Source: Agelaius tricolor (Eukaryota > Chordata > Aves > Passeriformes > Icteridae). Taken from it: a stretch of DNA of 64,000 nucleotides. Made by a program: the position numbers and the translations under genes. The notes under the pieces are model-generated. The model was not told the origin of the DNA, searched no databases, and saw only the letters and a list, made by a program, of their open reading frames with translations. How positions within the stretch are numbered: position 1 is the stretch's first letter; every line of letters starts with the position of its first letter. Of the stretch, positions 3,534-62,213 are shown piece after piece. The stretch spans positions 76,155,001 to 76,219,000 of the forward strand of contig JALJCS010000002.1 of assembly GCA_023055355.1 (NCBI GenBank), read 5' to 3'.

Positions 3534-4676
3534 GTGAGTGATGTCCCATGATAAATTTGCAGCTGTGTGCAGGGGTGTGTGTGTTCAAAGAAGTTCTCTT
3601 AGTTGACCAGCTCTTCTTTTCCCAGCATTTGAGTAAAACTTCCTAAATTGTGTGGTTTTTGTAATCTCCATTAAAACTGTGAACTTGATCATCTGAGTAG
3701 GCCAAAACAAGGATTTTTTTAAAAAAATATATTCTGGCACTTTGATAATCTCTTTTTTCTGATGTTAAATTTGACTCTTCATCTCTAAAAATTTGAGTTT
3801 TATGAAAAATGGTTCATTTCGCTGTAGAAATACTGGAACATCTTGCTCTTGCTAGAGCTCTCAAAACTTCATGTTTCCAAAAATGCATGTCACTGTATAG
3901 CCAGAAATAGAAGTTCCACTGCACTAGAGGTGAATGGGGTTCCAAGCACTAGAAATATGTATGAGTCTTTGTAATTTGTAAAAGCTGTAAAGAGGAAAAC
4001 CAGCTCATAAGCTATTTACAAATGAGAAGGCTCAGTCTGTTGTTATTCTGTTAAGTGGAACCAGTGGTATCTGGCTTGCCAGTATCTCCTACAGGTTACT
4101 AGAGCCAACTTTCTACCTGGGAATCCCAGAAAAGTTAATGTGAGGAAATACCTCCAGTGAATTCATATGTGTAATTCTCATTATGCCTCTAACTTGCGTT
4201 TTTACTCGAATAATTAATTATGTGTGTTCTTAAATGAGTTGTGAAGGATTTTCCAGGTTCCCTCATAGAAACAAAGCCAGAAATAAACACAGTGAGAGAC
4301 AAATTTCTTTTCCTTTTTTTCATGACCTTACTGAATTGGGAAATTATGTGAAAACATTTTTCTATGAAGTTTGTCTAGAGGCTTGTGTAGCCTCCATCCT
4401 TGGAGTTATTTGGGACCTAGCTGGGTTAAAACCATGGACAACTTGGTGTGACCTTGGGGTTGACCCTACTTTGATTGGGGAGTTGGCACTAGAGGTCTCC
4501 TGATCTCCCTTTCAAGCTCCATTATCCTATGGTTATGTAAAATCAAGCTAATAAAACACCTAATTTACCCTTACCAGAGTTGTAAAGGTGCTGAAATGCT
4601 TCTCCTTAATATAACTTCCTCTTCCCTGAAGAACAGACAGTGCTGTATGTTTGACACTACTGTTTTCTCTTTTTAG
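3534..4676 (+). other. PIP4P2: PIP4P2 last intron
   Basis: An intron of 1143 bases between the two recognised exons. It has a GTGAGT donor at 3534 and a pyrimidine-rich acceptor ending TTTTTAG at 4676. No other feature was seen. The 89-codon open frame at 4234-4503 has no recognisable similarity and is taken as chance. Confidence 0.85.
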
Positions 4677-4820
4677 GTTGGTACACAAGATTTCGCCAGG
4701 CGATTTCACGCAACATATGTTTCTTGGGCTGTTGCTTATCTCTTAGGTTTAATCTGCCTCATTCGAGCCTGCTACTGGGGGGCCATTAAAGTCAGCTATC
4801 CAGAGCACAATTTTGCATAG
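4677..4820 (+). CDS. PIP4P2: PIP4P2 (TMEM55A) terminal coding exon with stop
   Basis: This exon starts in phase 0 right after the TTTTTAG acceptor and encodes 47 residues plus TAG at 4818-4820. It opens with VGTQDFARRFHATYVSWAV, includes the second C-terminal transmembrane helix (about YVSWAVAYLLGLICLI) and ends ACYWGAIKVSYPEHNFA. The tail resembles the human PIP4P2 C-terminus, with only conservative changes. The helix pair anchors the enzyme in the late endosome or lysosome membrane. The frame is intact and the length looks normal for the family, so the gene appears functional here. Confidence 0.95.
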   Translation, partial: VGTQDFARRFHATYVSWAVAYLLGLICLIRACYWGAIKVSYPEHNFA

Positions 4821-21707: not shown

Positions 21708-21795
21708 ATGTTTCAAAATGTTACAGAAGCAAAAAAGTTTATTGGTAAATCCCTTCAGCCAGCACGACCTGTGCATCAACTGTCTTCTAAACAAG
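21708..21795 (+). CDS. C8orf88: C8orf88 coding exon 1 (start codon exon)
   Basis: The ATG at 21708 opens MFQNVTEAKKFIGKSLQPAR and then PVHQLSSKQ. This matches the N-terminal block of human C8orf88 (KLIGKPLQPARPV). The exon is probably spliced in after TTTCAG at 21689. A TGA lies in the same frame three codons upstream (21699-21701), which fixes this ATG as the first possible start. The exon ends at 21795 with one base of a glycine or alanine codon before a GTGAGT donor. The bird protein has about five extra residues at the N-terminus compared with human. Confidence 0.88.
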
Positions 21796-22615
21796 GTGAG
21801 TAGCCTGGCTAAGGTGCAGTTCACTTTACCAAAGTTTGGGTTATGTTTCGGGAAGTTACAAGGATGTGTAAGGTGTCTTGTTTTGTTTTGTTTTTAAATT
21901 ACTTCATTAAACTACAGTGAGTAAATAGCTTGCTGTGTGTTGATCTTAGCACATCATTTCTGTGATAAAATCTGAATTTAAACTGTATTAGATTTATGCA
22001 GAGCTCTTTGGTACTGATCTTCTAGCTTGGCATCTGAAATGTCGCTTCAGAAAGCTGGATCAGGCTTCTCTGTTAAATTTGGATTTCTTGGGGTGGCTGA
22101 TCCTACTATTGAAAACATAAAATACACATAATTTAGCAGATTATTTGGGTTTTATTGCAAGTATTGATGCCTCAGGTACAGTACACTGCACTGCATTGTT
22201 CTTATCTAGCTTTCATACAATTTCAAAACAAAAAACCCAAAAAACTTCCAGAAAAAAATCATGCAGTATTTATGTCAGGTGTGAATATTTTGATTTAAAT
22301 TTTAAATTTCTATAGATTAAAGCCTAGCTATTGCAGTACTACAGTTGTTATTGTTAAGTTAGAAAGTTTTGGTGGCCAGAAAGTCATCAGCTGTGCTGAT
22401 GTGGACTGCAGCTAAGTGACATCATAAATTTTTACTTTGTATGAAATTTATGGAAGAAACGGAAAAGGGGTCCTGTGGTCATGTGGAGCTTCTGAGTTGT
22501 GAATAAATGCCTGTATAACCTCTGTGCAGCAAGGAGTGTTCTTGGGGCAAGTATCACAAAATAAAACTGTGGTGTCTATTGAAATTATTTTTTCTTAATG
22601 TTTTATGCTCACCAG

Positions 22616-22692
22616 CATCACCCATTGCGTTAAACATTCGAACTGAATTACCCAGCAGCACTGAAGTATGTTTGCAGAGTAAGGTTAACTGG
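22616..22692 (+). CDS. C8orf88: C8orf88 coding exon 2
   Basis: This 77-nt exon follows a CACCAG acceptor. It completes the split codon (Ala) and encodes 25 residues, SPIALNIRTELPSSTEVCLQ then SKVNW. It ends in phase 0 before GTGAGT. The spacing and residues align with the human segment containing NFQNEYPCNTQCIQSGV, although this central part of the protein is poorly conserved. Phases on both sides agree with the neighbouring exons. Confidence 0.78.
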
Positions 22693-24050
22693 GTGAGTAT
22701 TGAGGAAATATATAATTTTTTATAAATTGGAGGTCAGCTGATCTGTTATGGAACCAAATGAAAACTGTTTCCAGCTTGGAGTGTCCTTGACTCTGAATGT
22801 TTTAAAACAGCAGTGTCAGAACTGTTGAAAAGAATTATGAGTTTCAGGAATGCCTTTCCCTGGTATTTGCATGCACTAATAGCTGAAAAATGCAGCTTAG
22901 GAATTTAAGATTCTTACAAAAATCTGTGTGGCATTTCTTTAGTCTTCATTGAATTTAAGTCAGCTCTTTTAAACGTAGAGTATTCTGTCTTCACTTATGT
23001 GTAAATAATAAAATTAGAATTTTTTTTGTTGTTAGCATGTGTACAAATTCATTTGAGACAGCAAACATCATAAAACTTTATGCTTTATTGCTAGAAGTGC
23101 TTGACTTTGGACATGGTACAGATATGTTTTTCGGACTTGAAATTGGCTATAGCTGTTTGCTGGAAAATGAAGTTTGAAGTCTTCCAAATGGAATGCTTCA
23201 TGTTTCATAGCCTGAATTTGACTTTCTAAAGATTCTGATTTGAATTTTTTTCAGAGTGTTGATAGATGGGGGTTTTTGTGAGAACAAATACCTGCTCCTT
23301 AGTTTTTACTTTATTTTTTTATTATTTTAGAAGAGTTTTAGTAATCCAGTAGGTGTTCTTTATTTTGTTAAGCTTGTGCAAGCTGCTTTTGACTTTAAAT
23401 TTTTTTTTAAAAAATCAAGGTCTTGGGAGCCTATCTTTGATCCAACACAGGGAAATGAACACTTAGCCTTGTCTCTTGAGCAGTAATTACTGAAGAGAAC
23501 AAACTACTCCCTTTTAAATAAGCCTTTGGTCATCAGTGCTGTAATATTTAGTTTCATCAGTATTTAGCTACATGTAGCTGCACTTTGCCTTTGTTTGATA
23601 TAGGTATAGCTGTATTTTTTATATATTTTTTTAATTTTTTCTTTAATGTAGCATATGGATAAGACTTTTCAATAATACTTTTAACCATCTCCTTTCTGCT
23701 AAATGAAAGAATCCAAGTCCATCCTTTGGTCTTTAAGAAAAGTTCTTCCTGCTGTTATTATTCCCAAATGTAGCAGCTTGTGGCTGCATTCTAGGTGGGA
23801 TGATAGAAAAGGAAGGGTTAATTGTGTTCTTTTTAAAGACTAACAATTGAACTGTAAAGTTCTGTATAAAAATATCTCTCAAATATGTTCATCTGTATTG
23901 TCTTATTCCTTTATTGTATGTAATCAAAAGTAACATTCTACAGGTTCAAATTAAACTGTACTACAACTGTTACTTTTACCTAAGAAACATGTATCCTTGT
24001 TTTAATATGCTTAAAGGAAATAAGCTTCATAACTTTCCTTCCTATCTTAG

Positions 24051-24135
24051 TCATCTGAAATGACTGAAGTGAAGATCTTAACTCAAACTATGATGCTCTG
24101 TCAACCAAAGCAACATGAATCAGGAGAAAAAAAAG
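24051..24135 (+). CDS. C8orf88: C8orf88 coding exon 3
   Basis: This 85-nt exon follows a TATCTTAG acceptor in phase 0. It reads SSEMTEVKILTQTMMLCQPK then QHESGEKK and leaves one base before GTAAAA. It occupies the place of the human glutamine-rich linker before the conserved KKERI block. Similarity is weak here, but the final Lys pair, the frame and the splice phases fit exactly. Confidence 0.72.
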
Positions 24136-25769
24136 GTAAAATACTGCATGTGGAGCTGTGTCAGGATTTTATTTTCTGGAAAAAGGCCAACTGAACTTTG
24201 AAGTGATATGGGCTGTACTTTATTTTTTCTGATCAGCCAGTGCATTGATAGTTTGGAGAGCAGAGTGAAACTTTTCTGCTTTTCACATAGCACTCTAGAG
24301 AAAGTATAAAAATTCACCATAAGTGAGGTAAAGAACTTCCCTGGTAGAGCTGCTTGCATATAGGGATATAACTCTTAAAAAACCCCAAACAAACCCAACA
24401 AAACAAACAAACAAAAAACTGCAGCCAACCCCCTGTAAAAACAGACCCCAAACATAAAAAAATTCTTCACACTAAATCTTGAGTTTATATAGATTGCTTG
24501 TGTGTGTAGAAGTACAGATTTGAGTTGCATCCTTTAGCCTGCTGCAGGGCTCAGTTGTGGCACACAGACTACTGAATGTAAACAAGTTGAGAACTCAGCA
24601 TTTTGGCTTCCTTGTCCTGCTCTTACTACAGTGGTTCTGAAATAATAGCGTTTGGGTGGTTAGATATGAATTAATTTTTTTATGATTAATCCTGGTCTAT
24701 TTGTTTCTGTGTCAGTACTGTCCTTAAAGTTTGCTCCTCATGCTTTTCTCTCTGTACTGCCTGCCACTGTACTCATAGAGAAATGGTAGTTGGTAACCAA
24801 GTCAAATTTTTGCTCCTTTTTTTTTTTTTTTATTAAGGGATAATCTCAGATTTCAAATGCTTTCTCACAGTACTTCCCTGCCCTGCTTCCTACCTAATTC
24901 TTCATTTCTAAACATGTTACAGAAACTGCATCAGTGACCCAGGTTAGGTCACCAGTTCATTGAGACAATTTCATTTGTCTGTGTCTGCCTGTAATCAGGC
25001 ATCCATCTGTAATTTCCAGTCCTTAAGTAATCTCTGAAGATGTAGTTTGTTCTTTTGCTATTTGTACTCAAAATTTGAAAGAATTCTATTAGATTTTAAT
25101 GAGGCCTTCATATTTTTGTCAGTCTGAGGTTACCATCTCTCAGGTTCTTGAGCATTAGTTTGGTTCTGACTTGAAAATAAGTCTTCCATGTATCTTTATA
25201 AAGCTCAGGTTCATTTCTTCTATTTTTGATCTTGATAAATAGAAGAGAGCCCTGGTTTTTGGTTTCTGGTTAGATTACAGACTTGTCAAGTTCTGTCTGT
25301 TTAGTGATTTCTTTCTGATCCTTTATCATCGATTCTGCTTGTGGTGAGTAGAGATTGTTTTGTTCTACAAGATCTTAAACAGCTTCTCATCAGATCCTGA
25401 TCTCTTGTATAATCCAACCCTTTGGATCGTTTTCAGTGGTTACTTGCTCTGTGATGCCTCTCTGAGTCTGCTGCACAATTCTCCCTATTGTCAAACTTTT
25501 TCTCACACTTGTTTTCAAAGGGCTTTTGTTTGTTTGCTGATAGTTGTAATCTTTTCCTTCTGAGTTACACAACTTTAGAGGTCTACTATTCAGCTACTTC
25601 TTACACATAAGTCTTTTGTTTTCTTCATTTTTTTTACTTGCACAGTAAAATTTCTTCTAGAGCTCTGTTTATGTTCAGCTGTACTTTAAGTTCCAGATAA
25701 TAATTTCTATTTAATATCTCTTCAGTGGTACTGTGCTTTCAATCATCTGTCTCAGCAGTTCTTAAGTGC

Positions 25770-26015
25770 AGCATGGTGTTTTCATGGGCCTGCTTCTTGA
25801 GCTTTTCCAGGTCTCTCTGGATGGTATCCTTCCTTCAGGTGTGCCAACTGCACCACTCAGTTTGGTGTTACCTGCAAATTTGCTGAGGGTGCCATTGATC
25901 CCACTGTCTGTCATTGCTGAAGATACTCAATAGAATTGGTCCCAATATGGAACCCTGAGGGATACCATTCATCACTCACTGATCTACATCCAGACATGCC
26001 CACTACTCTTTGGAT
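25770..26015 (-). mobile_element. CR1 LINE fragment, left half of an interrupted element
   Basis: The + strand reads like antisense CR1 (CAGGTCTCTCTGGATGG, TTTGGTGTTACCTGCAAATT, GGTCCCAATATGGAACCCTG). It stops abruptly at CACTACTCTTTGGAT near 26015, where a different CR1 begins. The matching right half resumes at about 26474. The element lies in the C8orf88 intron between coding exons 3 and 4. Confidence 0.8.
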
Positions 26016-26473
26016 TATAGGATGGTGTGGGTTGTAGGGGACTAAAAAGTCATCAAGTTCTAACCCCCTGCTATGAGTGGGGGCCCCTGCCAGGAGACCA
26101 TGTTACTCAAAGCCCCACCCAGCATGATGATGAGCACTCCCTGGGATGGGGTATCCATAACTTCTCTGTGCAGCCTTTTCCAGTGCCTCACCATCCTTAC
26201 AGTAAAGAATTTTGTTCTCCTGTCTAACCTAAACCTACTGTCCCTCAGCTTAAGGCCATTCCCCCTTTTCCTATCACTACATGCCTCTGAAAAGTCCCTC
26301 TGTAGCCTTCTTGTAGGCCCCCATTAGGTACTGGAAGGCTGTCCCAAAGTATCCCAAGAGACTTCTCCAGGCTGAACATCTCCAACTACCCAAGCCTGTC
26401 TTCATAGGAGAGGTGTTCCAACCCTGTGATCAGCTTAGGGACTCTCCTCTGCACTTGTTCCAACATGAGATCA
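26016..26473 (-). mobile_element. CR1 LINE inserted inside an older CR1
   Basis: It begins with the CR1 3' terminus in reverse orientation (TATAGGATGGTGTGGGTTG) and continues through standard antisense CR1 text such as CCAGTGCCTCACCATCC, ACAGTAAAGAATTTTG and AGCTTAAGGCCATTCCCCC. It ends near CAACATGAGATCA. Both flanks belong to one other CR1, so this copy inserted later. GGAT at the left edge and AGAT at the right edge are a possible short target duplication. Confidence 0.78.
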
Positions 26474-26600
26474 GATGCAGCTGTCCAACCAGTTCCTCAT
26501 CCAGTGAACAGTCCCCCAATCTAATCCACATCTCTCCAATTTAGAGAGAAGGATGTTGTGGGGGATTGTGTTAAAGGCCTTACAGAAGTCATAATCTTCA
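26474..26600 (-). mobile_element. CR1 LINE fragment, right half of the interrupted element
   Basis: The text resumes as GATGCAGCTGTCCAACCAG, CAGTTCCTCATCCAGTGAAC, TCTCCAATTTAGAGAGAAGG and AAAGGCCTTACAGAAGTC. In other CR1 copies this follows directly on the sequence that ends at 26015. Confidence 0.75.
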
Positions 26601-27588
26601 TAGGTTTTTAATCAAAGGGAGGTAAAAAGAAGACAGAAGTTTTCAAGTATGCTTGTATTCTTTAAACTGTTTTTTTTTCAAAGTTACCCACATGCCCTCC
26701 CTTAGGTTCACCAGTTACTGCATCATTTGTGTTCAAAGGCAGGAAAAGATTTGTGTCATTGTTGATATCAGCTTCTCTCTTTTCAACATCCCGCAGTCTG
26801 AGAAGGAAAAACTGTTGGTCATCAGGTGACAGTGTAACAATCTTGCAGGAAGCCCATTATTTCTAAAGCAATATGCTTCTTTGTCATCAAGGACCAGAGA
26901 TAAGGTTTGTTCTTTGTTTGCCTAATTCCTTTCCTCTTGTTTCTGCTCTTGTTTGAGAATATCAGCTTAAATACAGACATTGCTAGATATATTGTATCCA
27001 AAGCTATGCCATAGTAGACATAGTGCTATAAACTCAAATGAGAAACCTACATGTTCTGAGCAAAGGCTCTGACACTTGTTGATCCAACATAATCCCTCAA
27101 AAGTATTTCACTGCTATTAATCTGTTTGCCATTTTACGTGCAGCAGATCTTTTCATTCCTTTTAGGTGTTGAAAGACATTTAACTTATTAGCTTCAAGAA
27201 AAGAGACACCCTATTTTTGTTATCTGTCACTTAGAAATAGGTGCCACTTTGGAGTGAGTTATAAACAGATTTCCTTGTGGGTTTCAAGACCAGTTTATGG
27301 TGTTTCTGCTAATTGGAACAAGATACAGGGAGTCTGTCTGTTGTAAGGTTGGAATCACCTTTTTTCTTCTTTTGTGTTGATTTACTGTGTCAGTTTGATG
27401 CAGGTAAAGTGAAATGCTCTATAATTTACTTCAGAATTTCCTGATGCAAGATATGACCTAAATTACTTCTGTTTTTAAAACTGATTTTTATATTCCACGT
27501 GTAGCATTTCTACTATTATATAAGTTACAAAATAATTTTTCTGAATTTCCAATCTTAATTCCTTAAACAAGAATGTTATACTTAGTGA

Positions 27589-27735
<147 letters not shown>

Positions 27736-33448: not shown

Positions 33449-33477
33449 CTAGTTGTTATTGAGAACCCACCACGATG
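33449..33477 (-). CDS. NECAB1: NECAB1 terminal coding exon with stop
   Basis: A 29-nt coding end: after TTTCAG, CA completes Ala, then SWWVLNNN and TAG at 33451-33449. It matches the human terminus ASWWILNNN. The 3'UTR follows toward lower coordinates. Confidence 0.9.
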
Positions 33478-34191
33478 CTGAAAGAGAGCAGAGTTTATTT
33501 ACTTTTTAGCATAAATTGCATTTCTTTTTTCACCTCTGGTAAAAATTCTAAATAAAATACCTATAATATATATAATTAAATGTTTGTTTGTATATGCAGC
33601 TAATACTGGTGACAAAAAATACTCAGAATACTTGGAGAGCTAAGTGGTGGGAAGGTGGCTTTATCACAATAATTATATCCCTTTTTGATAACATCCAAAG
33701 AAACATCATTGTGTCATAGGTGCAGCTGCATAGAATGAAGCGCCCTGAGAGCAAACCAAATAAATCCTCAGTCCTGTGCTGCTGTGTGTGTCAGTTTTTA
33801 ACCCAAGCACTGTTTCCTGGGTGGCTGTGTTAGCTTTAATGACTTGCTCTTCTAGTGACATTATTCAAATCTATGGGTTTTTTATACAACTCTAGGAATT
33901 AGTAACTTTTTGTCCTCAAAAGTAAGAGAATTGATGGACTTGCAAAATGTCATTCCCATAAAAAATTCTGTAATCACCATATTATAGGCAGTGCTGGGGT
34001 GAAACCAATTTGTATTTCTTCCCCACAATCTCTAGCCTTTGACCTTTTGAAATGGAACCTTATGCAGAGAGGAGCCACAAGATTTATGGAGAGAGATGGG
34101 AAGGAAGGAAAGGAATTGGGACTGTATCTGAGATGCCAAGGAGTGTACGAGGCTACGTAGGTGTCACACTACACAAATTCATTAACAGAAC

Positions 34192-34261
34192 TTATTTCTT
34201 ATTTCTTATTTCTTATTTCTTATTTCTTATTTCTTATTTCTTATTTCTTATTTCTTATTTC
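34192..34261. repeat. (TTATTTC)10 heptamer microsatellite
   Basis: Ten perfect copies of a 7-base unit, in the last NECAB1 intron. The other strand is purine-rich (GAAATAA). An open frame through it only reflects the repeat. Confidence 0.95.
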
Positions 34262-36455
34262 TATATTTCTTGTATCCATAAATGTTTCCATTAATGGTTT
34301 TTGAATGAAAATTATTATTCATGAAAAAACATCATGAGAAAATAGTCAAGTCCTACCTGAATTCAGGCTATGAGCCTAGTAGTCTTTGAAACATCAGTGG
34401 ATGTTTCAACCCCCAAAAATGCCAATTTACCGATTTATTTCATGAGTTATAGTGTTATAAGTGTTCAGTAGTTTCCCTTTATCTTGTTTTCTTCACCCAA
34501 ATGTTCTCTAGAGTCCTTAAGTCCAGATGATCTTGTATAAAAAGGAGACATTCACTGAATGTGAACTGAATGATTCATGCCACCCTGGTAGATTGGCTGA
34601 AGCAACTGGGTGAGTTAACAGGTGTATGAGTGGTTATAATAGCTTGTGGTTCCTCTTAACTGAGGGTAAATTATTATCTTTGGGATAATACTGAATCAAA
34701 TGGTCTTGAAAACTTGTCTTTCTGAATCATTCTTGGCCACAGAAGTGCATCCTTACTAATTTTAGTTAATTGGTAAAGACTTAAAGGTTGTAAACTTTGA
34801 ATGAATCAGATTCAGATTACAATTTGCAATTGATTCAGTTCTTATCTACCCAGATGTGGAAAAGAAGTTTGGAAGTTTCTCAGCTAGGGTAAATTTGTTT
34901 TTAGAATAGAGCCTATCTGTGCTCTAACTGCAGACAGGTTTAGGGTTTTTTTCCTTCTGATTTTACAGCAATATCACTTTATGTGATGAAATATGTCTAA
35001 AATTCTTTAGTAAAGTGTACTGGTGGAATTGCAGCCATCATTTTTTACTTCAAGATCATTTTCTGTCTTTCAAACACAAATACGGTTTGTGTAGATCAGT
35101 TGTGGGAAGCTCTTTCCATGAAACAGAGTTCAAATCATTGCACAGATTTCTAAATTACAGGTAATGTATAATATTGTACAAAGAACTGTGAATGCATCAA
35201 TTCCCACTGCCCCCCTGCCCCAGCAAGGAGTGCACAGTGAGAAATGCTGTTTCTATGGTAACTGTCTGCCAGGACAGAGTGCTGCAGACTGAAATCCTTC
35301 TTAGCAGGCAGAGCAAATGCTTTAATGAGTACTTGGAATCCAATTTCAAACACTTCCATATTTAGGCACTTAAAAATTATGTTTACATTTTATTTTATGC
35401 AAATTGCACTTTACCCATGTGTAAACTACCCTGGAACACTGCTGGATCATGTGCAGTCTCTTGGACAAAAAGAATTTTTGAAAAAGGCTCCACTGTTTCC
35501 AAATCAAGTTTCTCTTAAATCCAGCAACATCCCAGTAGATACAAGATTTACAGAGATACTTGGTTCATTAACTTCAATCTCCGAATTCTGCAGGAGTCCC
35601 TGGCATATAATTTACTGTCCACATCAGGCTCGTGAGATCTGAAGATGTCTTGTCTGGTTTCTTTTAAGGACAAATCCCAGGTACAGGACTACATTTATTT
35701 TTCTACTAAGTGAGGTTTTATTATTTTAAATTTAGCCTGTACTCAGACACATAGAAAATTAGGGCTTCATTGTAATAGATTGTGTTCTCTAAAAAAAAAA
35801 AAATTACTGTCCTCTTTCTGTAAATATGGGACTGATGCTTTCTTTCTTATCTTCATCCTGCACCTGCACTGTGTCTTTTAACTCTTATTTCTAGGAGAAA
35901 GATGTTACATGCTCATTGGTTTCTATTAAGAATAAAAATTTGGAATCTTTACCAGCCTGTTTTTTTTGGTTTTTTTTTTTTTTTTTAACATAGCAGGAAG
36001 TATGTACAACAAGTTGGTTAGTGAATATCAATTATTGGTAAATAAGGCTCCCTTCAGTTAATGTAAGTAGGAATAAATTGAAGTCCTAATCAGAAAGCAT
36101 TTTTTTTCCTTGAAAATCTTAAATGGGATCTATTTTACCATTCACAAATAGTATTGTTTACTCTAAATATTTTCTTAAGTTTATTCTAAATATTTTCTTA
36201 AATAGTATGTCAGTGTTACTTCACACTATGTGAAATAAAGCACTGTGGGTCTTCTCCTTGCTGATGCATTTTATGTTTATGTGGTTAAAATAGAAATATT
36301 TGTAGTTCTTTTCTCCTCTATACTTTACCAAAGAAGATCTGAATAAGGGTGATATTATGCAGTGGTCTTGCATATGGAACACACTAATAGAACCATTCAC
36401 ATGTAACAAAAAAAAAAAAAAGACAAAAAAAAAGAAGTGAAAAGTTGATATTTAC

Positions 36456-36547
36456 CAGGGACTAGCATTGTTGTGATGAGCTCTGGAGTTTCCAAGAAAT
36501 CCATATTACTTCTCTGGAATGTCTTGCTGTAATTCATTTGAAGGTGG
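36456..36547 (-). CDS. NECAB1: NECAB1 penultimate exon, end of ABM domain
   Basis: After TTATTTAG the 92-nt exon completes a Ser codon and reads HLQMNYSKTFQRSNMDFLET then PELITTMLVP, leaving one base before GTAAAT. It differs from human at only three positions. Frame and splice sites are intact even though it lies downstream of two stop codons, so the damage is recent or the region was under constraint until recently. Confidence 0.92.
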
Positions 36548-37561
36548 CTAAATAATTGTAAAAAATAAAAATGTAACATGTTTTTTAAAGGGGCTCAATT
36601 TTTTAAATGAGCATAAGAAATTTCACAGTTAATGCTGTATAGAGATTCTGTGCTTAAAATCTTACAGTGATAGTGGGAGAGGAGACCAGATAAGCTATGA
36701 AGTGCCTGCAGATATATGAAACCCAGGTTTTCTCTGTGCAGCTCGCTGTCAGTCTGATGCTCATCTCTTGGTTGTGACCCAGTACAGTGTTGACATGTGT
36801 TACCAGCGTTCCTGAGTCTTGGTGATAGGAAACCCAGTAAAACTGGGGTTTTGTTTGACAGGAAAGCAACAAAGCTGCAAGAGACTTCTCCATCTCCCTA
36901 TGAACAAGCTCTCTCTACAGATTTAGGATCACAGGGTTGGTGTATTTCAGTGCTGTAACTAAATGTAGGTAAGGACAATCCTTTTGTCTCTACTCAACTC
37001 CTTTGTCATCTGCCTGCCAGAGGCTAGCATTCAGCTGGTAGGATGTTTAATAATTTCTATTTTGGGCCCAAAAGAGACACTCTGGAAGTCTGTTGGATGG
37101 GTTCCTGTGATGTAGATTGGGAAGTTTTGGGAGAGTTCCCCATAACTACTGATGTGTGCTACAGGCTGGCACATCTTCTGTTTCAATAATTGTGACTTTT
37201 TGTTTCTTCTTCCTTATCATGAAACTGGTGCTATTGCTGTCTTCCTGGTTTTCTGTCTCTGATGAACTAACATCCACCTGATGCTATATCTTTATGTACT
37301 TGCTTTTGGACTCTTTCTGCTTTGAATAATCACCGTTGTATTTCTGGCATTTTTATTTATGTTTCAGTACATTCAAGTCTTTAGCAACCAAAGTATTGTT
37401 CTGAAGTATTAATTGTGATGTATTTAGCAAAACATCAGTTAGCAGTATTTAAAGTAATTTGTACTCAGTCTTTCCACACAATTGATTTCTAACCTTCAAA
37501 ACTTTATGCATTACCAAAAAAAAAAAGAAAAAATGAAAGCCACCACAGTCCTGACACTTAC

Positions 37562-37639
37562 CTATTCCAGGCATTGCTGTTTTCTCAGAACTTGTAAACA
37601 ATGAAGTGGAAATTACTCAGAATCTTCTGTATGGAAACA
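37562..37639 (-). pseudogene. NECAB1: NECAB1 ABM-domain exon with in-frame TGA
   Basis: After AATTCTTAG the frame has one split base and 25 codons. They begin VSIQKILSNFHFIVYKF, then TGA at 37587-37585, then ENSNAWN plus two bases before GTAAGT. In human the segment is YEFWENSSVWN, so the stop replaces a conserved Trp (TGG to TGA). The exon length is exactly that expected, with no gap, but only about half the residues match human. This is much poorer than neighbouring exons and suggests relaxed constraint. Confidence 0.85.
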
Positions 37640-39637
37640 CTAAGAATTTCACAATAAAACTAATTTAATGAAACAAAACAAAATTATTGGACATATACAT
37701 TTTATTCCTAACTGCTTATCAGTAGGAACAAATGCAGTGACTTTTGAAAAAAAACCCCACAGAACAAAACAAGAAAACCAAACGCAATACAAACCCAATT
37801 AATAAACTTAACAAATGAGTGATCATAGTGATCACATACTTCAAATTATCTGAGCTTCTAAAAATAAAAACCCTTGTATATTTATTTTTATTACGTAATA
37901 TTTTATGCAAATCATTTTTCATATTGCTCCAATAGTGTAATTTATCTAAACAAATGCTAAACAGAAAATTAATCAAACAGCTGCTCAGGGAAGATCATCT
38001 AATAAGTAGAAGTTATCCTTTTGTATGAGAGATGCATCCAAGTGTCATAGAATTTAGGTGCTTTGAAAGCAAATGGAGTAGATGAAATAATGTACATATT
38101 ATAGAGTAAAAAGCTACAGAGGCTGACATCTGGTGCAGATACACTTTTAAATTAATATTTTGCCTACTACTTACTTGTTCTTAAGTTATTCAAGTAACAG
38201 TTTCTCAGGAGTGGAAAATGACCCACAGAATATCTGTTGATTCTCTACACAGCATCATCCTGCTTATTATCCTGAGCATAAAGGATAAAAGCTTTATAGT
38301 GTGTAGGGTATTTATTCACTTGGGTACTCATATTAGTGTTTAGATAAATGGCACAGAAAGTATATATACAGATTTTTCCATGTGCCCAAGTGTGATATTG
38401 CTGACCTCACTAATGATGTGTTTGAAAACTGGTCTCAGCTTATGCTTCATATTGTAGTCAGCAATGTTTTGTGATTTATCGTTTTTTTCCTGCTGTATGT
38501 GAAAGTGCATGGTAAAATGGCCAAAATATCAAAAGCTGTTGGAAAAAACAAGTCACTGTCAATTATAGCTACAGCAAAACCCATCGTTAGGTGGCATTAC
38601 AGACTTAACAAATGCCTGTAGACTTGGGAAAGAAAGGAACTTTCTGCCAGCATTTGCTAACTTGCATTCTGAAGTCATGTCACCTCTCTTCCCCAACAAA
38701 TCTGCAGTCACGACAGTGTTTTGCTGGATGCTCATTTTTGGGAGGAGGCTGGGAGGCTTCTTATTGGGGGCTTTTTCCATCTCTTGGCCAACAAGAGAAT
38801 TTTATTTTCCTCATCAGTCTGCCTTTGCAAGTGAACCACTGCAGAAAGGTCACTCTTCCAGCTTAATTTTTCTGGTCTATGTGAACACTACTGATAAAAT
38901 CCTAATTGTGATAATCTCATAGCAACAAGACTCATAAATTAGGGCTGTGATAGGCAGTCTTTGAAGCCCTTGACTAGATGGGAAGATTCTGCGTCGTGTA
39001 CACATTACCAAAATATCTTTTTCATAATGGTCTATAATATGTATGATAGTAGATCTCTCTATTATGTTAAATTCAATATTAAGTACACTGGTAAGCCACT
39101 AAAATTTATTCTTAACCCAGCTCTAATGTTTTATTAATTCTAAAAGGAGCAAAGCAGAAACACATTTTCATTGAAAATTTTGCTTTTTAATTTTTCCAAT
39201 TATTTATTATGAATTAAAATTTTACAGTGACAGCCTAAAGGGAAGATTCTGAAAGCTTCCAAGCAGAGAACTGGTAAACAATTGAAAAGTTGCTCCTTTT
39301 CCAGGTGAGCAAAAATGAAGGACGGCAAATGAGTTTTCCAATAATGTCAGCCTAGAAGCTTCCAGAAGTCATGAATTGATGACCTGCAGAGCTAACAAGC
39401 CTGAAAAGATTGTTTAGCATCTTTGGGATGTACAGTCATTTTGTGATAGTAGGTAAAATCTGCACATTCCCACATCTCTTTCTAGTTCTAGGTGTCTTTA
39501 AAGAAGCTTTGTCTTACACACACACACGACACACCAAGAAAGGTGTCATAGGTTCTCTCTTCATGAATAATCTGAGTTTCTAAAGAAAAAAGACTACATT
39601 TCTTCCTTCAGCCCAAGGACAATAACCCTGTATTTAC

Positions 39638-39750
39638 TGCAAGCAGCCACCTTGAGCAGAAGCAGATTCCAGGTACTGCTTCAGGGCAAGGTGGAATTCT
39701 TCCACTTTTTCTTCTTTCACAGACATTTAGTGCTGAACAATCATTATCTG
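39638..39750 (-). pseudogene. NECAB1: NECAB1 ABM-domain exon with in-frame TAA
   Basis: In phase 0 after an ATCAG|CAG tandem acceptor the frame reads QIMIVQH, then TAA at 39729-39727, then MSVKEEKVEEFHLALKQYLE and SASAQGGCL plus two bases before GTAAAT. Human NECAB1 reads HIMLVQRQMSVIEEDLEEFQ, so the stop replaces Gln: CAA or CAG in the ancestor became TAA. The rest of the exon is well preserved and both splice phases still fit. The exon opens the ABM domain. Confidence 0.85.
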
Positions 39751-41155
39751 CTGATACAAAACCATGACAATATTGCTGCCACAGCTTCCTCTGAATTGTA
39801 CTTTAAACTCAGAAAAGTCTAGAATGAAACAAAACCACAATCATAGAAGAAAACCCACAAAAGTTCCCTTGAGGTTTGCAGTCCCTGTTTTAGTGATCTG
39901 GAGTGGAGAAGTAGAAATGCTCAAGCATGGCTTTTGTTTCTGGGCATCAGTGTCCACTTCAGCCTGTTGTCCTAACTCTGGAGGAGAGTCTTCTCAGAAG
40001 AGGGCAAAGCAAAGGTTGGTCTTTGAGATGCTGAGTAATAAAATCAGTGTGTTTCCTTGGATGAATCTGTATGCCAGCAGGTGTGAGGTTTGGGATAATA
40101 GAATATCCCCACAACCTGCACTGGATGCATTGTTGTTTTTGTTAAGATGCTTTCATAGTTTTTCCCTTTTAGAGCCCTGCCCCTCACCTGACTGAGATGC
40201 CTAAGATAGCCCACATTAAGTGATTAAGAGAGGTCTTCCCTCCATAACTCTGCAGGAAAATGAACAGTCTTTTTAAACAGGACTATGGAAACTGTCAGCA
40301 GTGCAGAAGATCCTATCTATCCTGAATTAAAATAATTATCATTTAGTTCTTTCAAGTTGTTTATTTACTGATTAATCTATTGAAGCTTGTCAACTTTACT
40401 AATGGAACATTTAAAGCAATACTATGTGCTTCTTAATGAGTACAACTTAATTTCTCATGCAGGTTTTTTACTTGCTTCTGCCTTGATTATGAATACTGTT
40501 AAATCATGGATTATTAGCAGTCTGTGTAGCAATACTGCATAATCTCATTTAAAAAAAATCTAATCAACTCCTGTGATTAAATGATTTTTTCATGTATATT
40601 TGATTTGCATTTTCTTAAGTTCAAATGACTGAATGTTAGGTTTATGAATTTAGGAATGCTAGTTTATCAATCTTGGGACCTAAGCTTGTTTAACAGTAAA
40701 TTTATTTCTGGTCACAATTTTGATTTTGTCGATTGTAATGAGCACGAGATACTCTTCCATTTTACCTCATAAGATTTCCTATAGCAGTTTGGGAGGGAGG
40801 GAGGCTGTACAACAATGGTTAAAGCATGCATTCAGCATTTGGAGCAGAGAAGCTACCACCCCATAAACATTGCTGCCAAATTTGATAAATCTTAATAATT
40901 TTTCTCCTTATGTGTGTTAAGGTTTTGGCTCACTCTGTCCTTTAAAAAGTTAATATAAAAGTTTTACTCACATATTCTAAATTTTGTTGTTGCCTTTTGC
41001 ACAGTGTATCCTGCTAACTAAAATGGATTCTTATCACTGGAAAAAGTGAGGATAAAGATTTTTAAAATTATTTTTTAAAAAAAGAGACCAGGTGTGGTCT
41101 CAATGCCCAGTGCTTAAAATAAAATGTCAAAATCATTATCTTGAACAGTACTTAC

Positions 41156-41209
41156 AGATCTTGCATTTTCTTCCAAAACTTCCTCTTCAAGTGGCTCAAG
41201 CTTTAGGTC
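41156..41209 (-). CDS. NECAB1: NECAB1 54-nt exon, acidic linker
   Basis: Eighteen codons in phase 0 between a CCTCAAAG acceptor and a GTAAGTAC donor: DLKLEPLEEEVLEENARS. Human has DLKLEPPEEEIIEGNTKS. It links the coiled coil to the ABM domain. Frame and splice sites are intact. Confidence 0.9.
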
Positions 41210-44200
41210 CTTTGAGGCAATTGAGAAGAAAATAGAAATTGTAAGAAGAGTCAATAATACAGATGTATTCCACTCTTACATTTTTTACAAGCTATTCCAA
41301 AACCTAGATTCTGTTCTACCTCAAGAAGTTAAATCCCTTCTTTATTAGTTCTAAGTCAAACACAAGTTTTACATGATCCTGCATGCCTCAGTGGTTAATT
41401 CCAGCCCAGGCTGTCTTGTAAAGTTTTATTTATAGTGCTTGGCAGGTGATTTTTCATTTTAACAAATCTGCTTGTTCCCAAATGTATGTTGGATTTAATT
41501 GAGAAAAGACAGACATCCTCTCAAATTGTCTCATGGACTGTGGAGATGAGTAAGAATGGCAATTTGAAATGAACTATCAGCTACTGTTGTGCAGTCATGA
41601 AATTTTACACAGAAGAAACTTCCCTGCAGGGAATCTGTGTTTCCAAGGGGCTGTTTTCTAGCATTGAAAGAGATGTGCATGATGGTCCAAGTCAGGTCTC
41701 TGAACCTCTGTTCAGCTCTTGCTGTAAGAATGGGCTGGGCAGCAGCAAAGAGATGCATCTGTGAGTGCACCTGGTACCCAAACTGGATGTGCACTTCAGG
41801 AATCAGTGATTCACACCAACACCAACCTGTAACACACACAAAATCATTCTTTACTTGCCAGGCACATGCAGTACCTCCTAACCCAGTGCCATTATGATAT
41901 TCTGAAAAATACCCATGTGCCTGAGAAAAAAAAGCAGATTGATTTGCAATAAGCAGCTGGAGCAAAACACGCTCTGTTAGTGGTGCTTCACGTCTCACTG
42001 AACACAGTTCTTGTGCAACAAAGAGAAAAATCTTCCACTCCCAGCATGGGGGAGGATTGATTAACCTCAGGTAGCAGCTGTTCTGCCAGCACAGATGCTG
42101 TACTCACTGAAAACCAACTAGAGATGTGCAGGTAGAATTCAAATGAGCAGAGCACCTCCACCAGCAGCAGGTGGCAGAGCAAGGCAGGCTCAGAAGCTGC
42201 TGTGAAGTTGAAGTCATGAAATGTGTGTGGGAAGGGAAAGACAGCCAGCTTTATTGTCAGTGCAGACACTTCAGATAAAAAAAATGAGGGGGAAAAAAAA
42301 GTGTATTCCTGAAGTGAAAGTTCACTTTCACTGCCTTTGTTTTGGTCAGGAAACATATGGAAAAAGAGAGGAAAGGAATGACTCCAGGAAGTACTGCAAA
42401 ATTTCTCTAAATGTAGCAAGAAAATAATTGTTTTCTTTGCCAGTATACGTAAATAAAGCCTGGAAATAAAAATGGATGCAGCTCAGAGGCTTTAAAATGC
42501 CTTTGTGATCCTACCTCACCTCAGCTGAGAAGTGGTGGCTTCTGAAATTGCCTTTTAGAATGATTGTGCAATCCTTTCTTATAGTTTTCAGGGCAAAGTC
42601 AACAAGAGGAGTTTTAGTCTGACAGGCAGCTGGTATTTAATGCCTCTCCCAGTCAGACATGGCTGCGAGATACAAATTCAAGTAGATGCAAAATTAGACA
42701 AAGGTGAATATAGATAGATTGTCTACTGGAAAAATTAGACTTATGTAATTGCTATGTTTTATTAATCAAGTTTTATATTGACAAGGAGGTAATTATGGGA
42801 GGTTTATACCCTGCCACTGCTTCCCTTTGGCACCAAGCTCCTTTTCAGACTCAGGTTCTCTGTTATTGGTCTGTAAAAAATTTGATCATTTTATAACACC
42901 CTTGTTATAAGTTTATTTACCACAAAATGTTTGGCTGCTTTCTGTAACATTTGAACTGCATTATTGCTGAATGCCGTGTTTATTTCTTTTTAAAGTAACA
43001 TTCTTTTAAATGGGTTTTTTTTGGCATCAGTCCATGTCAGGTGGCAATTGTGGCAGGGCAGTGAGCTGCTATTTCCAGAGCTGAGCGGAGAGTAAAGCCA
43101 GACTTACCTTTCATGGTGGACTTTGACATTTCAAAATCCAATTTATATCTATTCAGAAAAAGATCAAGTTGCTACTAAAATGTCCCTAATGTGGCAACTG
43201 CTGTGTAATTGCCTTTCCCATGCAGAAATGGCCTCTGGGAGGAAGTGGCTGGGCAGAGGCTCATGGGTACCCCTGGGCAGAGCTTTCTGCACTGAGCAGA
43301 CCACGAGGAGCTGCAGGGCAAGAGCAGAGTGAGAAGCTGACAGAGTCATGGACAGTGCCACAAGGAATGGCCCCATTTCACAGCTGGTTAAGGAGAAGTG
43401 ATGTGAGAGACTGTCAGACTGCAGGGATAACCAAAGGGAACACTGGGCTCCTTTTGGAGCAAGGCCAGCAGTGCTGGGGGTGGCCACATGCAGCTAATCA
43501 GTAATGAGGCTGAGATAACAGAAACACCAAACTGGGACCAAAAGGGAAAGGTAGTTAGGGGCATTTTTTTTCCTTTGGGAGGGAGGAAAGGTCAGTGTGC
43601 TTCTCTTGCTGAGGCCTGTGCCAAGTCACCACCATTTATTGGGGTTTTTTGTTAAAATCCTCACTTAACTATTTTCTGTGTGTGTAACTTGCTACTGAAC
43701 TCAAGCTGGACTAGTGGTTGAGTAACAGGAGATGTTTTTCTGCCTTGACCCAAGGTCTGAGCCAGTGCCTGGGTAAGGGGTATGGGTCCAGCCACAAATA
43801 CTAGATGACAATATTCACAGGGGAATATCCCAAGCAACTAGAAAGAAAAGAACAGGATCAGACTGTTTCATGTCCCTGTGAGTGCTGCCTGTGTGGGTGC
43901 TGGTGAAGAGACCCATGCCAATGTCTTTGAAGTGCTCTCACTGCTGCTGAGCACTGACCTGTGGGGAGGAACAGCAGCAGCTGCACTGGGACTGGAGCTC
44001 CTCCTGGGCCTGAGAGCACAACTCAAAACCTCACCTCTAGTGGACAAGGAGGAAGAAACACCCTGGGTCCCAAAATCCACTGAATTCGGCCACTCCCTTA
44101 GGGCATGTCTGAAATTGTCTGTCTGTCCTTCAATAGGGAAATTTAATGCAGAGAAAAACTCAGGAATTTATAACCTTACTTTTCCCTCTGCTGTTCTTTC

Positions 44201-44924
44201 TTAAAATAAAAAAGAAAAAAAGAAATCATCACATACAGATTTTAAGACAACTTTTGAACATCAGAGTAACAATCAAGTCAGAGTAATAATGAAGAATAGA
44301 TATATTCTGTACTGACAGATGTGGCTCAGGATTTTACAAGCACTGGGAAGCCCTGGCATTTTTGATCAGATGGGTGATTTTTCAGACTCCTGGAGGGCTC
44401 TGCTTTGGTGTGGGAAACACAGGTGGTTTCTGGGCTCTGGGAGCTGCTGCAGCCAGCTGCCAAAAATATTTGCATCAGACTTTGGTTGAACTGTACTGAC
44501 AAGCAAAGCAGTTTAATCTTTATAAATGAGTATTCTCTGATGGGAAAGGAGGAAACAAAACTTTCTACCAAGCTTTCATGTAAAAGTTTAGAGAGGAAGA
44601 GGAAAATATCAGATCCTAAAAGAGGAAGATTGTAACATGCTCCCACAAACAAGCACTACTGAATACATTAACATTCTCCAGTCATAGAATAATACAATTT
44701 TTCACATCTTTATGAAAAGTTCAATCTGTGGTAATGGGAGGGGGAAAGGGAAGAGCATGGAAAAGCAATGTCATGAATAGGAAAGACGAAGGTGAAGAAA
44801 ATGTAGGCATTTAATGAGTGTTAGGTCTCTTAGGTAATGTTGCAACTGGGGCATTGAAAACATTTGTAGTTTAAGGATTAATTTACTGAAAGTGAAAGAA
44901 GAAACAGGTGAAAAACCTGCACAC

Positions 44925-45001
44925 CTTCTTTTCCAGTCTATCAATTAGCCTCTGGAGTCTGTTTATCTGGACAACACATTGGCTGTCTTCTTCAATCCAA
45001 C
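44925..45001 (-). CDS. NECAB1: NECAB1 exon, coiled-coil segment
   Basis: After TTTTCAAAG the exon has two bases of a split codon and 25 codons, WIEEDSQCVVQINRLQRLID then RLEKK, ending before GTGTGC. Human NECAB1 has LLEEDNQWMTQINRLQKLIDRLEKK. The segment is a good leucine-heptad coiled coil. The exon itself is intact, but it needs one base from the preceding exon, which that exon as found does not supply. Confidence 0.88.
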
Positions 45002-45169
45002 CTTTGAAAAAGAGAAAAGATTAACCTTTATAAAATGTTGCTAAGTTGCTGGTAGATAGTGTATTCCTGTATTTTATAAAAAAATATCCCTGCAAATTTT
45101 TTGGCTTTTCAAAGATTGTGCTGCAACTAGTTCAATGTTCATTTAGGTGGATGTGGAAGAATGGCTACG

Positions 45170-45479
45170 TGACAGGGGCCACGTTCTAGACCAAGAATTG
45201 GGAAGATGCAGCTAATCTGGGTCCCTGCACCTGCAAAACATTGTGTCCTTGAGCATAGCTGTAGTATGATAACAAGTAGTGAGAGAGACATGAGAAAAGA
45301 AAGATGTAACCCCTAAGGTATGAGGAAGAGCTGATATTGTAGTATAGCCAATAGATTGCTTAGCTTGCAGAATATGTATGAGCTTATTACTTGTTGTGCA
45401 TAAAAGCCTGATGCTCTCTTCAATAAACAAAGCTTGCCAAACACTCATATTGAGCGTCCAAGTTTCCCTCACTGCGACA
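45170..45479 (+). mobile_element. Solo LTR-like fragment of an endogenous retrovirus
   Basis: The segment has the layout of an avian retroviral LTR on the + strand: a CATAAAAG TATA-like box at 45399-45406, an AATAAA signal at 45422-45427, a GCGTCC-containing tail and a CA end at 45478-45479. Text such as AACAAGTAGTGAGAGAGAC and AAACACTCATATTGAGC is familiar from songbird LTRs. No internal retroviral genes flank it, so it is probably a solo LTR. The left border is uncertain. Confidence 0.65.
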
Positions 45480-45667
45480 GGTGGAACTAAAGGAAAACAT
45501 GATTTGAATCAATGAATTATTTTCTTTCTTTTTAAGATTCAATAGAAATCCAAGACAGAATGAAAACTACATTATAGATTAATGCCAGTGCTTTTGAAAT
45601 AATGCTGGTAGCAGAAGAAAGTTCTCCATCTCCACTGCAGGGATATTCCTGTCTGTATAGTGACCTG

Positions 45668-45790
45668 ATCATAGAATCATAGAATGGTTTGTGTTGAAAG
45701 GGACTACAAAGATCATCAGATTTCAACTCCCCTGCCACAGGCAGGGAACCTTCCACTAGGTCAGATTGCTCAGTGCCCCATCCAACCCAA
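45668..45790 (-). mobile_element. CR1 3' end fragment, minus orientation
   Basis: It begins ATCATAGAATCATAGAATGG, the reverse of the CR1 3' terminal repeat, and continues TTCCACTAGGTCAG and CCCCATCCAACCCAA. It is about 120 bases, severely 5'-truncated. Confidence 0.88.
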
Positions 45791-45856
45791 TCTGATGTCA
45801 TATAGCAAGGCTGGAGCTAGACTATATTGTTCTAGACAGGCAAAAGCGTCTGGGCT

Positions 45857-46292
45857 ATGAAGGTGGTGAAGGGTCTTGAGGGGAAGCCATAAAAGGAGCA
45901 GCTGAGGTCACTTGATTCGTTCAAGTTTGGAGAAGAGGAGACTGAGGGGAGACCTCATCACAGTCTGCAACTTCCTTGTGAGGGGAAGAGGAGAGACAGG
46001 TACCCATCTCCTCTCTCTAGTGAGAGTGACAAGTGACAGGGAATGGCATCCAGCTGTGTCAGGGGAGAATTAAGTTGGATATCAGGAAAAGGTTCTTCAC
46101 CCAGAGGGTGTCTGGGCACTGGATCAGGCTCCCCAGAGAAGTGGTCACAGCATCAAGAGTTCAAGAAGCATTTGGACAATGCTCTCAGGCACATGGTGTG
46201 ATTCTTGGGGATGACACTATACAGGGTGAGGAGTTGGACTTTGATGATCCCTATGAGTCCCTTCCAATTCAGGATATTCTGTGATTCTGTGA
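45857..46292 (+). mobile_element. CR1 3' fragment, plus orientation
   Basis: It reads in sense through GGAGACCTCATCACAGTCTG, an ORF2 tail (KLDIRKRFFTQRVSGHW then LPREVV) and the 3' terminal ATTCTGTGATTCTGTGAG. It faces the minus-oriented copy just upstream, so the pair forms an inverted repeat within a NECAB1 intron. Confidence 0.9.
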
Positions 46293-47375
46293 GTCCCTCT
46301 AATATCTCTGGAAAGTTTTGCTTTGCTAAAGTATTGTGAAAATTGTCTGCCAAATGAAAATGACAGTACTCAAGGAAACAAATATTTGCATTATTAAAGA
46401 AGTTTCTGACATCACCCATCATGTAAATGTGTAAATGAGTGGTTGCTTTAAGGAGAGAGGAAGGTTATTTATCAGAAATGGAAGATTTTTCAATAAATGC
46501 TCTTGTTATCCACATTCATCAACCTTCTCATTTCCCAGCTGAGAGTTCTTGTGTCACTTGCATATATTTTGACCAAAGAAAGAAATCCTAATGCTGAGAA
46601 CATACCACAGCTGTGCTCTGTACAGGAGACAGGGTGTGGCTTTACCTGAGCAGGCACACAGGCTGAAGGAATGTTGGCCTGAGCCTTGGGTGCACACCAC
46701 AGTGTTACCGTGGGCAGCTGGCAGTAAGCAGGACGACCAAGTGCCAAGACAAACACAAACCTTGTGTAGGAAAGTGGACAGCTGTCAGCTATTAGTAGAG
46801 CTGTGGAGGAAAATGTTAGCTCTTTAAGATTACACCAATACAGTGAGTGGATTTGGTAGAACTTGCATTTGTTTGGGCTCCTTCTGAATCAGGAGTGCAG
46901 CTACAAGGCTCTGTGACCTTCCCTGTTAGGAACACCAACCCACAAGAGACCAAACATCATCCTGCATCACTGCTCTCAAAGACCAGCATCATTTGGTGAG
47001 TGGCAGGGAGTGAGTCCTGAATGTGAGTGACAGAAAGGTCCTCAGCAGAGGGTTTAAAAGGAAGAGGTCAGCACATGGTCAAGAAGAGAGATAGACTCAC
47101 TAGATGTTTTGTTGTTTCAGTCATCCTCATGCCTTGATTCTGGGACATGTAACTAAGCACAGAGATGTCTTCACTGCAGCTTCATGCCTAATGTCACAGC
47201 TTCCAAATAATCCCATTTACCAAAGTACTCCATCATTTTCCAAAGCAGAAATGCTGCTGCAGATTTTTTTTTGTGTGCGTTATCTTAAATGAAATATTCT
47301 TTTCTTTCTGGTTTTGTGTTTTCTTTTTCTGTTTATTATTTATTCCCCTCAGCTGAGATGTGAGTCATGGCAGAG

Positions 47376-47479
47376 AACTTGGTTGCATATAAGTCATGCC
47401 TTCACATTTTCATTCTGCAATGCATGAATGACTTTATATGCAACTTGGTTGCATATAAGTCATGCCTTCACATTTTCAT
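47376..47479. repeat. 66-bp tandem duplication (about 1.6 copies)
   Basis: A 38-base block beginning AACTTGGTTGCATATAAGTC occurs at 47376-47413 and again at 47442-47479 without mismatch, with a 28-base spacer. The duplication looks recent. It lies about 270 bases beyond the donor of the damaged NECAB1 exon. Confidence 0.9.
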
Positions 47480-47746
47480 ATCTGCAAGCAATACAGATTA
47501 CCTAAAAAATGTTGAATCAATCCAAAATACACACTTTGGCCCACAATTAAGTTTTTATCTTTTATAATTTCAGATCTATGGATATGCATTAATTTTCCTC
47601 AGTTTTCATTTAGTATCTTCTGTATTAAATTGAAATTGTCTTCTGCCAGTAAAGTATCTTAGTTACATGTCTAAATTAAATTCTTGAGAGGAAGATTTGT
47701 GTGTATTTTTCTGTATATATGTCTATGTGTTTAAAATGTGAAATAC

Positions 47747-47864
47747 CATATCTGTGCTAGAATAAGGGCTATTTGGTGACAGGCTGTTGTTCCTCTGAAG
47801 CCTTCGAGCTAAGCATTTTCCTGGCCACTGAACTGAGAGCACTTCTGGTTTTGTTGGATCTTTT
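47747..47864 (-). pseudogene. NECAB1: NECAB1 exon with lost acceptor and phase mismatch
   Basis: The homologous frame reads KDPTKPEVLSVQWPGKCLAR then RLQRNNSLSPNSPYSSTDM, matching human QGPAKPEVLSIQWPGK and HNSFSPNSP. By homology the exon should start at 47864, but the two preceding bases read GG (TGTGCGG) where AG is needed. The only nearby AG, ending at 47860, would put the exon in another frame with TAG at 47771-47769. At the other end the GT donor after ATG (47747) leaves phase 0, while the next exon needs one carried base. Read as is, the next exon soon meets TAA. Confidence 0.75.
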
Positions 47865-49089: not shown

Positions 49090-49226
49090 CTCTCCTGCCG
49101 GCTCTGCTCCTCCGTGCTTTCCATGGCACACTCCAGGGAGCTCTGCAGGGATTGCAGCTGGTTCAGTGTCTCCTTCAAAAGAAAGTGAGTTACAAACTGC
49201 TCCAAACTGGAAGCCTCCTGATAGTC
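49090..49226 (-). CDS. NECAB1: NECAB1 exon, start of NECAB coiled-coil region
   Basis: It begins after ATCCTTAG in phase 0 with DYQEASSLEQFVTHFLLKET, continues LNQLQSLQSSLECAMESTEE and ends QSRQE plus two bases of an Arg codon before GTGAGC. It is very close to human NECAB1 (DYQEASNLEQFVTRFLLKET). The Leu/Gln-rich heptad pattern is the helical oligomerisation part. This is the last clean exon before the damaged one, so a truncated product would end shortly after it. Confidence 0.93.
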
Positions 49227-59743: not shown

Positions 59744-59841
59744 TTTCTTTGTTTTGTCCATTGCCTTCAGTATGGTTATGTTTAAGTCTTCCAAGACAGA
59801 TAGAAAATTTTCATACTCTCCTAAGTGCTTTGAAAAATAAT
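59744..59841 (-). CDS. NECAB1: NECAB1 exon, post-EF-hand segment
   Basis: After a TTCTTTTAG acceptor the minus strand reads (D)YFSKHLGEYENFLSVLED then LNITILKAMDKTKK and stops in phase 0 at GTAAAT. Human NECAB1 has EYFSQHLGEYENVLAALEDLN and so on, with about 8 of 33 positions changed, mostly conservatively. The frame is intact. It joins directly to the DYQEAS exon at 49.2 kb without phase conflict. Confidence 0.92.
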
Positions 59842-62187: not shown

Positions 62188-62213
62188 CACAGAGCTCTTC
62201 TGTGTCAAGAGTG
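62188..62213 (-). CDS. NECAB1: NECAB1 26-nt exon, end of EF-hand 2
   Basis: On the minus strand, after CTTTCCAG, one base of a split codon is followed by TLDTEELC and one base before GTAAGTTC. It matches human NNLDTEELCEYF, in which the loop of the second EF-hand ends with the calcium-coordinating glutamates. It joins in phase with the exon at 59.8 kb, where G|AT gives Asp. At 26 nt it is a microexon that gene finders often miss. Confidence 0.85.

Follow-up and report, generated by a model that had tools for sequence, protein, structure and literature searches.

We analyzed a 64,000-nucleotide window of the Agelaius tricolor genome (contig JALJCS010000002.1, positions 76,155,001 to 76,219,000, forward strand), which carries exons 3 to 12 of NECAB1. 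NECAB proteins combine an EF-hand domain with a single calcium site at the N-terminus, a homology region in the center, and a putative ABM domain at the C-terminus. The ten exons, individually matched by tblastn and numbered by what we take to be the mammalian scheme, are collinear on the minus strand and share one joined frame without any insertion or deletion. Exon 3 starts at 62213, and the native stop is reached at 33449. With exons 1 and 2 past the window end, the locus is described here from exon 3 onward:

62188..62213, minus strand: exon 3, a 26-nucleotide microexon encoding the end of the second EF-hand; intact, with acceptor AG and donor GT, its frame joining exon 4
59744..59841, minus strand: exon 4, open, splice sites canonical
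49090..49226, minus strand: exon 5, open, splice sites canonical
47752..47864, minus strand: exon 6, frame open, acceptor GG and donor AT
44925..45001, minus strand: exon 7, open, splice sites canonical; Cys where all 12 emberizoid models have Trp
41156..41209, minus strand: exon 8, open, splice sites canonical
39638..39750, minus strand: exon 9, start of the ABM domain, with an in-frame TAA
37562..37639, minus strand: exon 10, ABM domain, with an in-frame TGA
36456..36547, minus strand: exon 11, open, splice sites canonical
33449..33477, minus strand: exon 12, open, carrying the native stop

Four disabling changes fall within this set. Exon 6 has GG in place of the AG acceptor just above 47864 and AT in place of the GT donor just below 47752. 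Exon 9 contains a TAA at 39729-39727, at a position encoding Gln in all 12 emberizoid models, and exon 10 a TGA at 37587-37585, where Trp is encoded by all ten emberizoid models that cover the site. A first-pass annotation of this DNA had reported ten ordered exons, the two in-frame stops, and a lost acceptor, all of which we recovered. It had also listed a phase mismatch, which we did not find: the ten exons share one frame, and the defect at that point is the AT donor of exon 6. The lesions affect both the coding frame (two stops) and the splice sites (one acceptor, one donor) of an exon-intron gene, as expected of a unitary pseudogene. A processed (retro)pseudogene is ruled out by the introns between the ten exons and by the splice dinucleotides, 17 of 19 of which are canonical (10 acceptors and 9 donors in total).

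To describe what the gene could still encode, we read each of the 256 chains leading from exon 3 to exon 12 for an open frame to the native stop. Three are open, namely E3-4-5-6-12, E3-4-5-11-12, and E3-12; the first requires exon 6, which makes E3-4-5-11-12 the longest open chain without it, and exons 9 and 10 occur in none of the three. Exons 9 and 10 carry most of the ABM domain, which spans residues 230-303 in the Aphelocoma model (Pfam). Since the two window stops correspond to residues 235 and 283, both within that interval, the domain cannot be made whole, and indeed none of the 256 chains encodes it completely. Cryptic splicing of exon 6 was considered using AG and GT/GC sites within 250 nucleotides of the exon. 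This gave 34 site pairs with a frame that stays open as far as exon 8, and 30 of these use a GC donor. No pair is open to the native stop, and rescue by this route was rejected. On the sequence, then, the normal full-length NECAB1 protein can very probably no longer be produced. A truncated product with the EF-hand part, lacking the coiled coil and the ABM domain, is possible though unproven. The first-pass suggestion that NECAB1 is inactivated is supported for the full-length protein by the four lesions, the lack of an ABM-complete chain or a cryptic rescue, and the intact exons of neighboring genes.

Our reading is that NECAB1 in this emberizoid (nine-primaried) songbird is probably a unitary pseudogene or, at the least, a null allele with respect to the full-length protein. 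Under this reading, constraint on NECAB1 would have dropped in songbirds and point mutations would then have built up without selection, with neighboring genes meanwhile kept under selection. Transcripts skipping exon 6 would shift frame and might be removed by nonsense-mediated decay.

The neighboring genes serve as a control for local decay. Two were recognized, both 3' of NECAB1 and on the opposite strand; their names rest on human protein sequences:

21708..27711, plus strand: C8orf88, four coding exons (21708-21795, 22616-22692, 24051-24135, 27605-27711) with a 119-codon open frame and seven canonical splice sites
3443..4820, plus strand: PIP4P2 (TMEM55A), last two coding exons (3443-3533, 4677-4820), intact, with three splice sites

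The first and fourth of these C8orf88 exons were found by protein match, and the two middle exons were assigned from frame and splice sites alone; the control covers these four exons, with the gene end not located. Across 591 coding nucleotides and 10 splice sites (20 splice bases), the neighbor exons contain no disabling change, compared to 2.9 expected at the NECAB1 lesion density (P = 0.06). The placement of both genes beside NECAB1 is presumably also the human gene order, and by this conserved synteny the window would fit the ancestral NECAB1 locus. Decay of the whole region, as on a chromosome that is sex-limited or germline-restricted, was judged unlikely, given the intact neighbor exons.

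The identity of the gene was assessed with the read-through translation, with X at both stops, which matched 598 proteins, of which the best 120 were examined. In this set, the best match is Aphelocoma (E = 3.5e-153, 89% identity), alongside Pheucticus (91%, 94% of the query covered), Cardinalis (90%, 96% covered), and Corvus (89%). All informatively named matches are NECAB1 or NECA1 rather than NECAB2 or NECAB3, with a few unnamed, hypothetical, or uncharacterized. Primate NECAB1 proteins among the matches listed share 72-73% identity. The first-pass description of the exons as near-human is loose, compared to the 89-91% identity to the nearest songbird models. The protein database was clustered at 90% identity, and the matches used were the best 120 of 1411, the best 120 of 598, and all 90. 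Because of the clustering and the use of the best 120, conserved songbird NECAB1 sequences are hidden within clusters (e.g. P0107, with 53 members), and the visible singletons are skewed toward divergent ones. Many of the "partial NECA1" models read intron in place of microexon 3. Viral contigs scanned for NECAB1 DNA of birds gave six pattern matches, none of them a relative.

For a protein tree we used 46 rows, the window plus 45 proteins hand-chosen from 266. Because intron-derived ends of partial models distort the tree, residues 1-9, 77-93, and 264-272 were masked in all rows, as were local read-through pieces in Prunella, Dryoscopus, Taeniopygia, Climacteris, and Anser. Here and below, the assignment of named genera to Emberizoidea or Passerellidae is taken as background. 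Among emberizoids, the window NECAB1 pairs with Rhodinocichla (support 64) and then with New World sparrows (87), a weak placement. By protein similarity the bird is thus an emberizoid; a family assignment to Icteridae or Parulidae would be a guess by elimination, as neither family is named among the NECAB1 matches listed, where each cluster shows a single name. Eight non-passerine birds have root-to-tip distances of 0.111-0.160, two suboscines and Acanthisitta (New Zealand wren) 0.158-0.168, the 19 oscines outside Emberizoidea 0.184-0.285, and the 12 emberizoids 0.236-0.275, with the window at 0.258. Thus, all 12 emberizoid models are farther from the root than all eight non-passerine birds.

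Changes specific to the window lineage were picked by hand. Out of 17 differences from the emberizoid majority, five (G7E, T64N, A80T, S106L, and C267W) were removed, the window residue there being common in other birds, which left ten missense changes and two stops. In read-through numbering, the ten are N2T, V22F, R56H, S118P, N120S, W134C, I136V, P214L, E223K, and V248M; S118P and N120S are the state of several non-songbirds, while N2T, R56H, and V248M recur in at least one other row. The neutral expectation is 1.3 disabling changes per ten missense changes, and the four observed alongside about ten missense fit an absence of selection against disabling changes. With about 12 nonsynonymous changes over about 600 nonsynonymous positions and no indel, a rough estimate suggests that the loss may be a few million years old. 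The first-pass proposal of a recent loss fits the absence of indels and the small number of missense changes, although the dating itself is rough.

Residues 118 and 120, both in exon 6, are Pro and Ser in the window and Ser and Asn in 12 of 12 emberizoid models, and the Pro/Ser pair occurs in several other birds. This may be a chance reversal or have another cause.

The exon 5/6 junction was tabulated for 25 gene predictions, hand-chosen from the same 266 proteins, and lesions in sparrows are accordingly read from protein models, not from DNA. The canonical junction is present in 14 of the 25 models. It is missing from all nine models of New World sparrows (eight species in Melospiza, Ammospiza, Passerculus, Zonotrichia, and Junco), as against an abnormal junction in none of the other five emberizoid models, all of which are among the 14. 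Five sparrow models (Junco, M. georgiana, A. caudacuta, Passerculus, and Z. leucophrys) contain residues resembling, in varying frame, window sequence that directly follows the exon 5 donor and is intronic there, and three (M. melodia, A. maritima, and Passerculus) contain residues matching the window intron immediately before exon 6. The Z. albicollis model P0189, named NECAB3 by its source, is NECAB1-like and joins exon 5 to a repeat that has a counterpart in the window:

46024..46125, minus strand: repeat piece in intron 6, presumably CR1-like, counterpart of the P0189 tail (34-residue match from 46125; low end computed)

Two of the sparrow models are flagged as low quality by their source, and the M. 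melodia model has no exon 10. In most sparrow models, a residue of the second EF-hand is changed as well. Neither window stop occurs in the sparrow models covering exons 9 and 10, and exon 5 with its donor is intact in the window. The sparrow junction defect, a pattern beyond the first-pass annotation, differs in kind from the window lesions. If the sparrow models mirror the DNA, there were therefore at least two independent events, which suggests that NECAB1 was lost independently in the window lineage and in New World sparrows, the latter having perhaps damaged the exon 5/6 junction separately. Elsewhere in the table, the Lonchura model is abnormal, with exons 6-7 missing, and Ficedula is slightly different.

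Irregularities were also seen in estrildid NECAB1 models, with an odd exon 5 end in P0224 (Lonchura striata) and an odd exon 6 end in P0148 (Taeniopygia guttata).

Several explanations other than gene loss were weighed. The lesions could have been tolerated in a shortened protein that is still selected, with exon 5 running on into exon 11, or into a repeat, to give an EF-hand product with no coiled coil and only the end of the ABM domain. The chain E3-4-5-11-12 is open to the native stop, as this would require, and truncated N-terminal models are found in Zonotrichia albicollis (P0189, exon 5 to repeat) and Junco hyemalis (P0198). Window-lineage changes also affect 4 of 127 residues in exons 3-5 and 11-12, compared to 8 of 145 elsewhere, but the difference is not significant (Fisher P = 0.39), the supporting models are predictions rather than transcripts, and most sparrow models are altered at a residue of the second EF-hand. 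We thus consider a shortened functional protein unlikely. Such an outcome is only a little less doubtful than a second one, that the window copy is a duplicate in decay, perhaps on a chromosome that is germline-restricted or sex-limited, with an intact NECAB1 elsewhere. Songbird copies of this kind are known, but PIP4P2 and C8orf88 adjoin the locus with intact exons in what we take to be the human order, as expected of the ancestral locus; we also found no open-access paper pairing NECAB1 with the germline-restricted chromosome, which is weak evidence. Sequencing or assembly error is very improbable. Although all four lesions look like single-base transitions relative to relatives or to the splice consensus, the probability of at least four disabling errors in one gene is about 1e-10 at 1e-4 errors per base and still only about 1e-6 at 1e-3, and the neighboring exons are clean. 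Restoration by RNA editing or recoding deserves hardly any weight: some of the changed sites are of an editable type, but A-to-I editing would restore neither the GG acceptor nor the TAA that replaces Gln.

Other observations weigh against a pseudogene. Only two of the ten exons contain a stop, and of the other eight only exon 6 has splice defects, which leaves seven wholly clean. The missense load of the window is not an outlier, with seven private residues (the two stops included), three of them at otherwise invariant columns; the Geospiza (Camarhynchus) parvula model has nine, five at invariant columns. Likewise, 16 of 192 conserved columns are changed in the window; the 26 other rows compared range from 4 to 25, with annotation faults inflating some of them. 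The neighbor control, at P = 0.06, is suggestive only. Finally, the apparently faster rate of songbird NECAB1 stands without a control gene for the general songbird rate, and songbirds evolve faster in general.

The pseudogene reading can be extended to a broader proposal, that NECAB1 is dispensable in songbirds and was lost repeatedly and independently in Emberizoidea (exons 6, 9, and 10 in the window, the exon 5/6 junction in sparrows), and perhaps in estrildids (Lonchura). We advance this tentatively, as something just short of an even chance. If it is true, a songbird group would be without NECAB1, perhaps through several losses, and a complex brain would be shown to manage without the protein. 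Expression, behavior, and NECAB2 could then be compared between related species that have NECAB1 and those that lack it, amounting to a set of multiple natural knock-outs of a neuronal calcium-binding protein among vocal learners.

Judged on titles and abstract openings, the open-access literature yielded no report of NECAB1 loss in birds. NECAB1 is described as strongly expressed in CB1/CCK interneurons of mammals and as sharing 97% identity between mouse and human, with its specific neuronal function unknown (PMC7869086). Like functional NECAB1, the window has recognizable, ordered exons 3-12, with the end of the EF-hand, the central region, and the ABM part; unlike it, the window cannot encode a complete ABM domain. 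STK33, also a vertebrate-conserved gene, became a unitary pseudogene in neognath birds, a loss dated by the title to about 100 million years (PMC4509753). That loss is old and common to neognaths, whereas the NECAB1 loss looks young and lies within one songbird superfamily, perhaps repeated. DCC is another neural gene lost more than once in birds, recurrently in passerines and galliforms, but there a block of neighbors was lost with it by rearrangement (PMC5327424), while at NECAB1 the neighbor exons are intact and the lesions are point changes only. MDA5 and RIG-I/RIPLET likewise show repeated losses of one gene in parallel across several bird lineages (PMC8619217, PMC9861763), although these are immune sensors of RNA viruses. 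NECAB2 is among the markers common to zebra finch nucleus RA and area AId (PMC7599217), so a NECAB1 paralogue is expressed in the songbird forebrain; that NECAB2 compensates for NECAB1 is speculation.

The window contains several further features within and near NECAB1. A minisatellite of 41 copies of a 21-base unit occupies 56274-57128, in the intron between exons 4 and 5, and a heptamer repeat, (CTTATTT)n, with 11.4 copies lies at 34191-34271 between exons 11 and 12. A candidate solo long terminal repeat, recognized by eye only, is located in intron 6 at about 45060-45480 on the minus strand. About 650 bases past the NECAB1 stop, a 7SK RNA model matched over its full length at 32502-32801 on the plus strand (88 bits against a cut-off of 35), perhaps a 7SK-derived copy. 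Finally, a GC-rich stretch at 19240-19760, with overlapping long open frames on both strands, is perhaps the C8orf88 promoter, as the first coding exon found for that gene begins some 2 kb further on.

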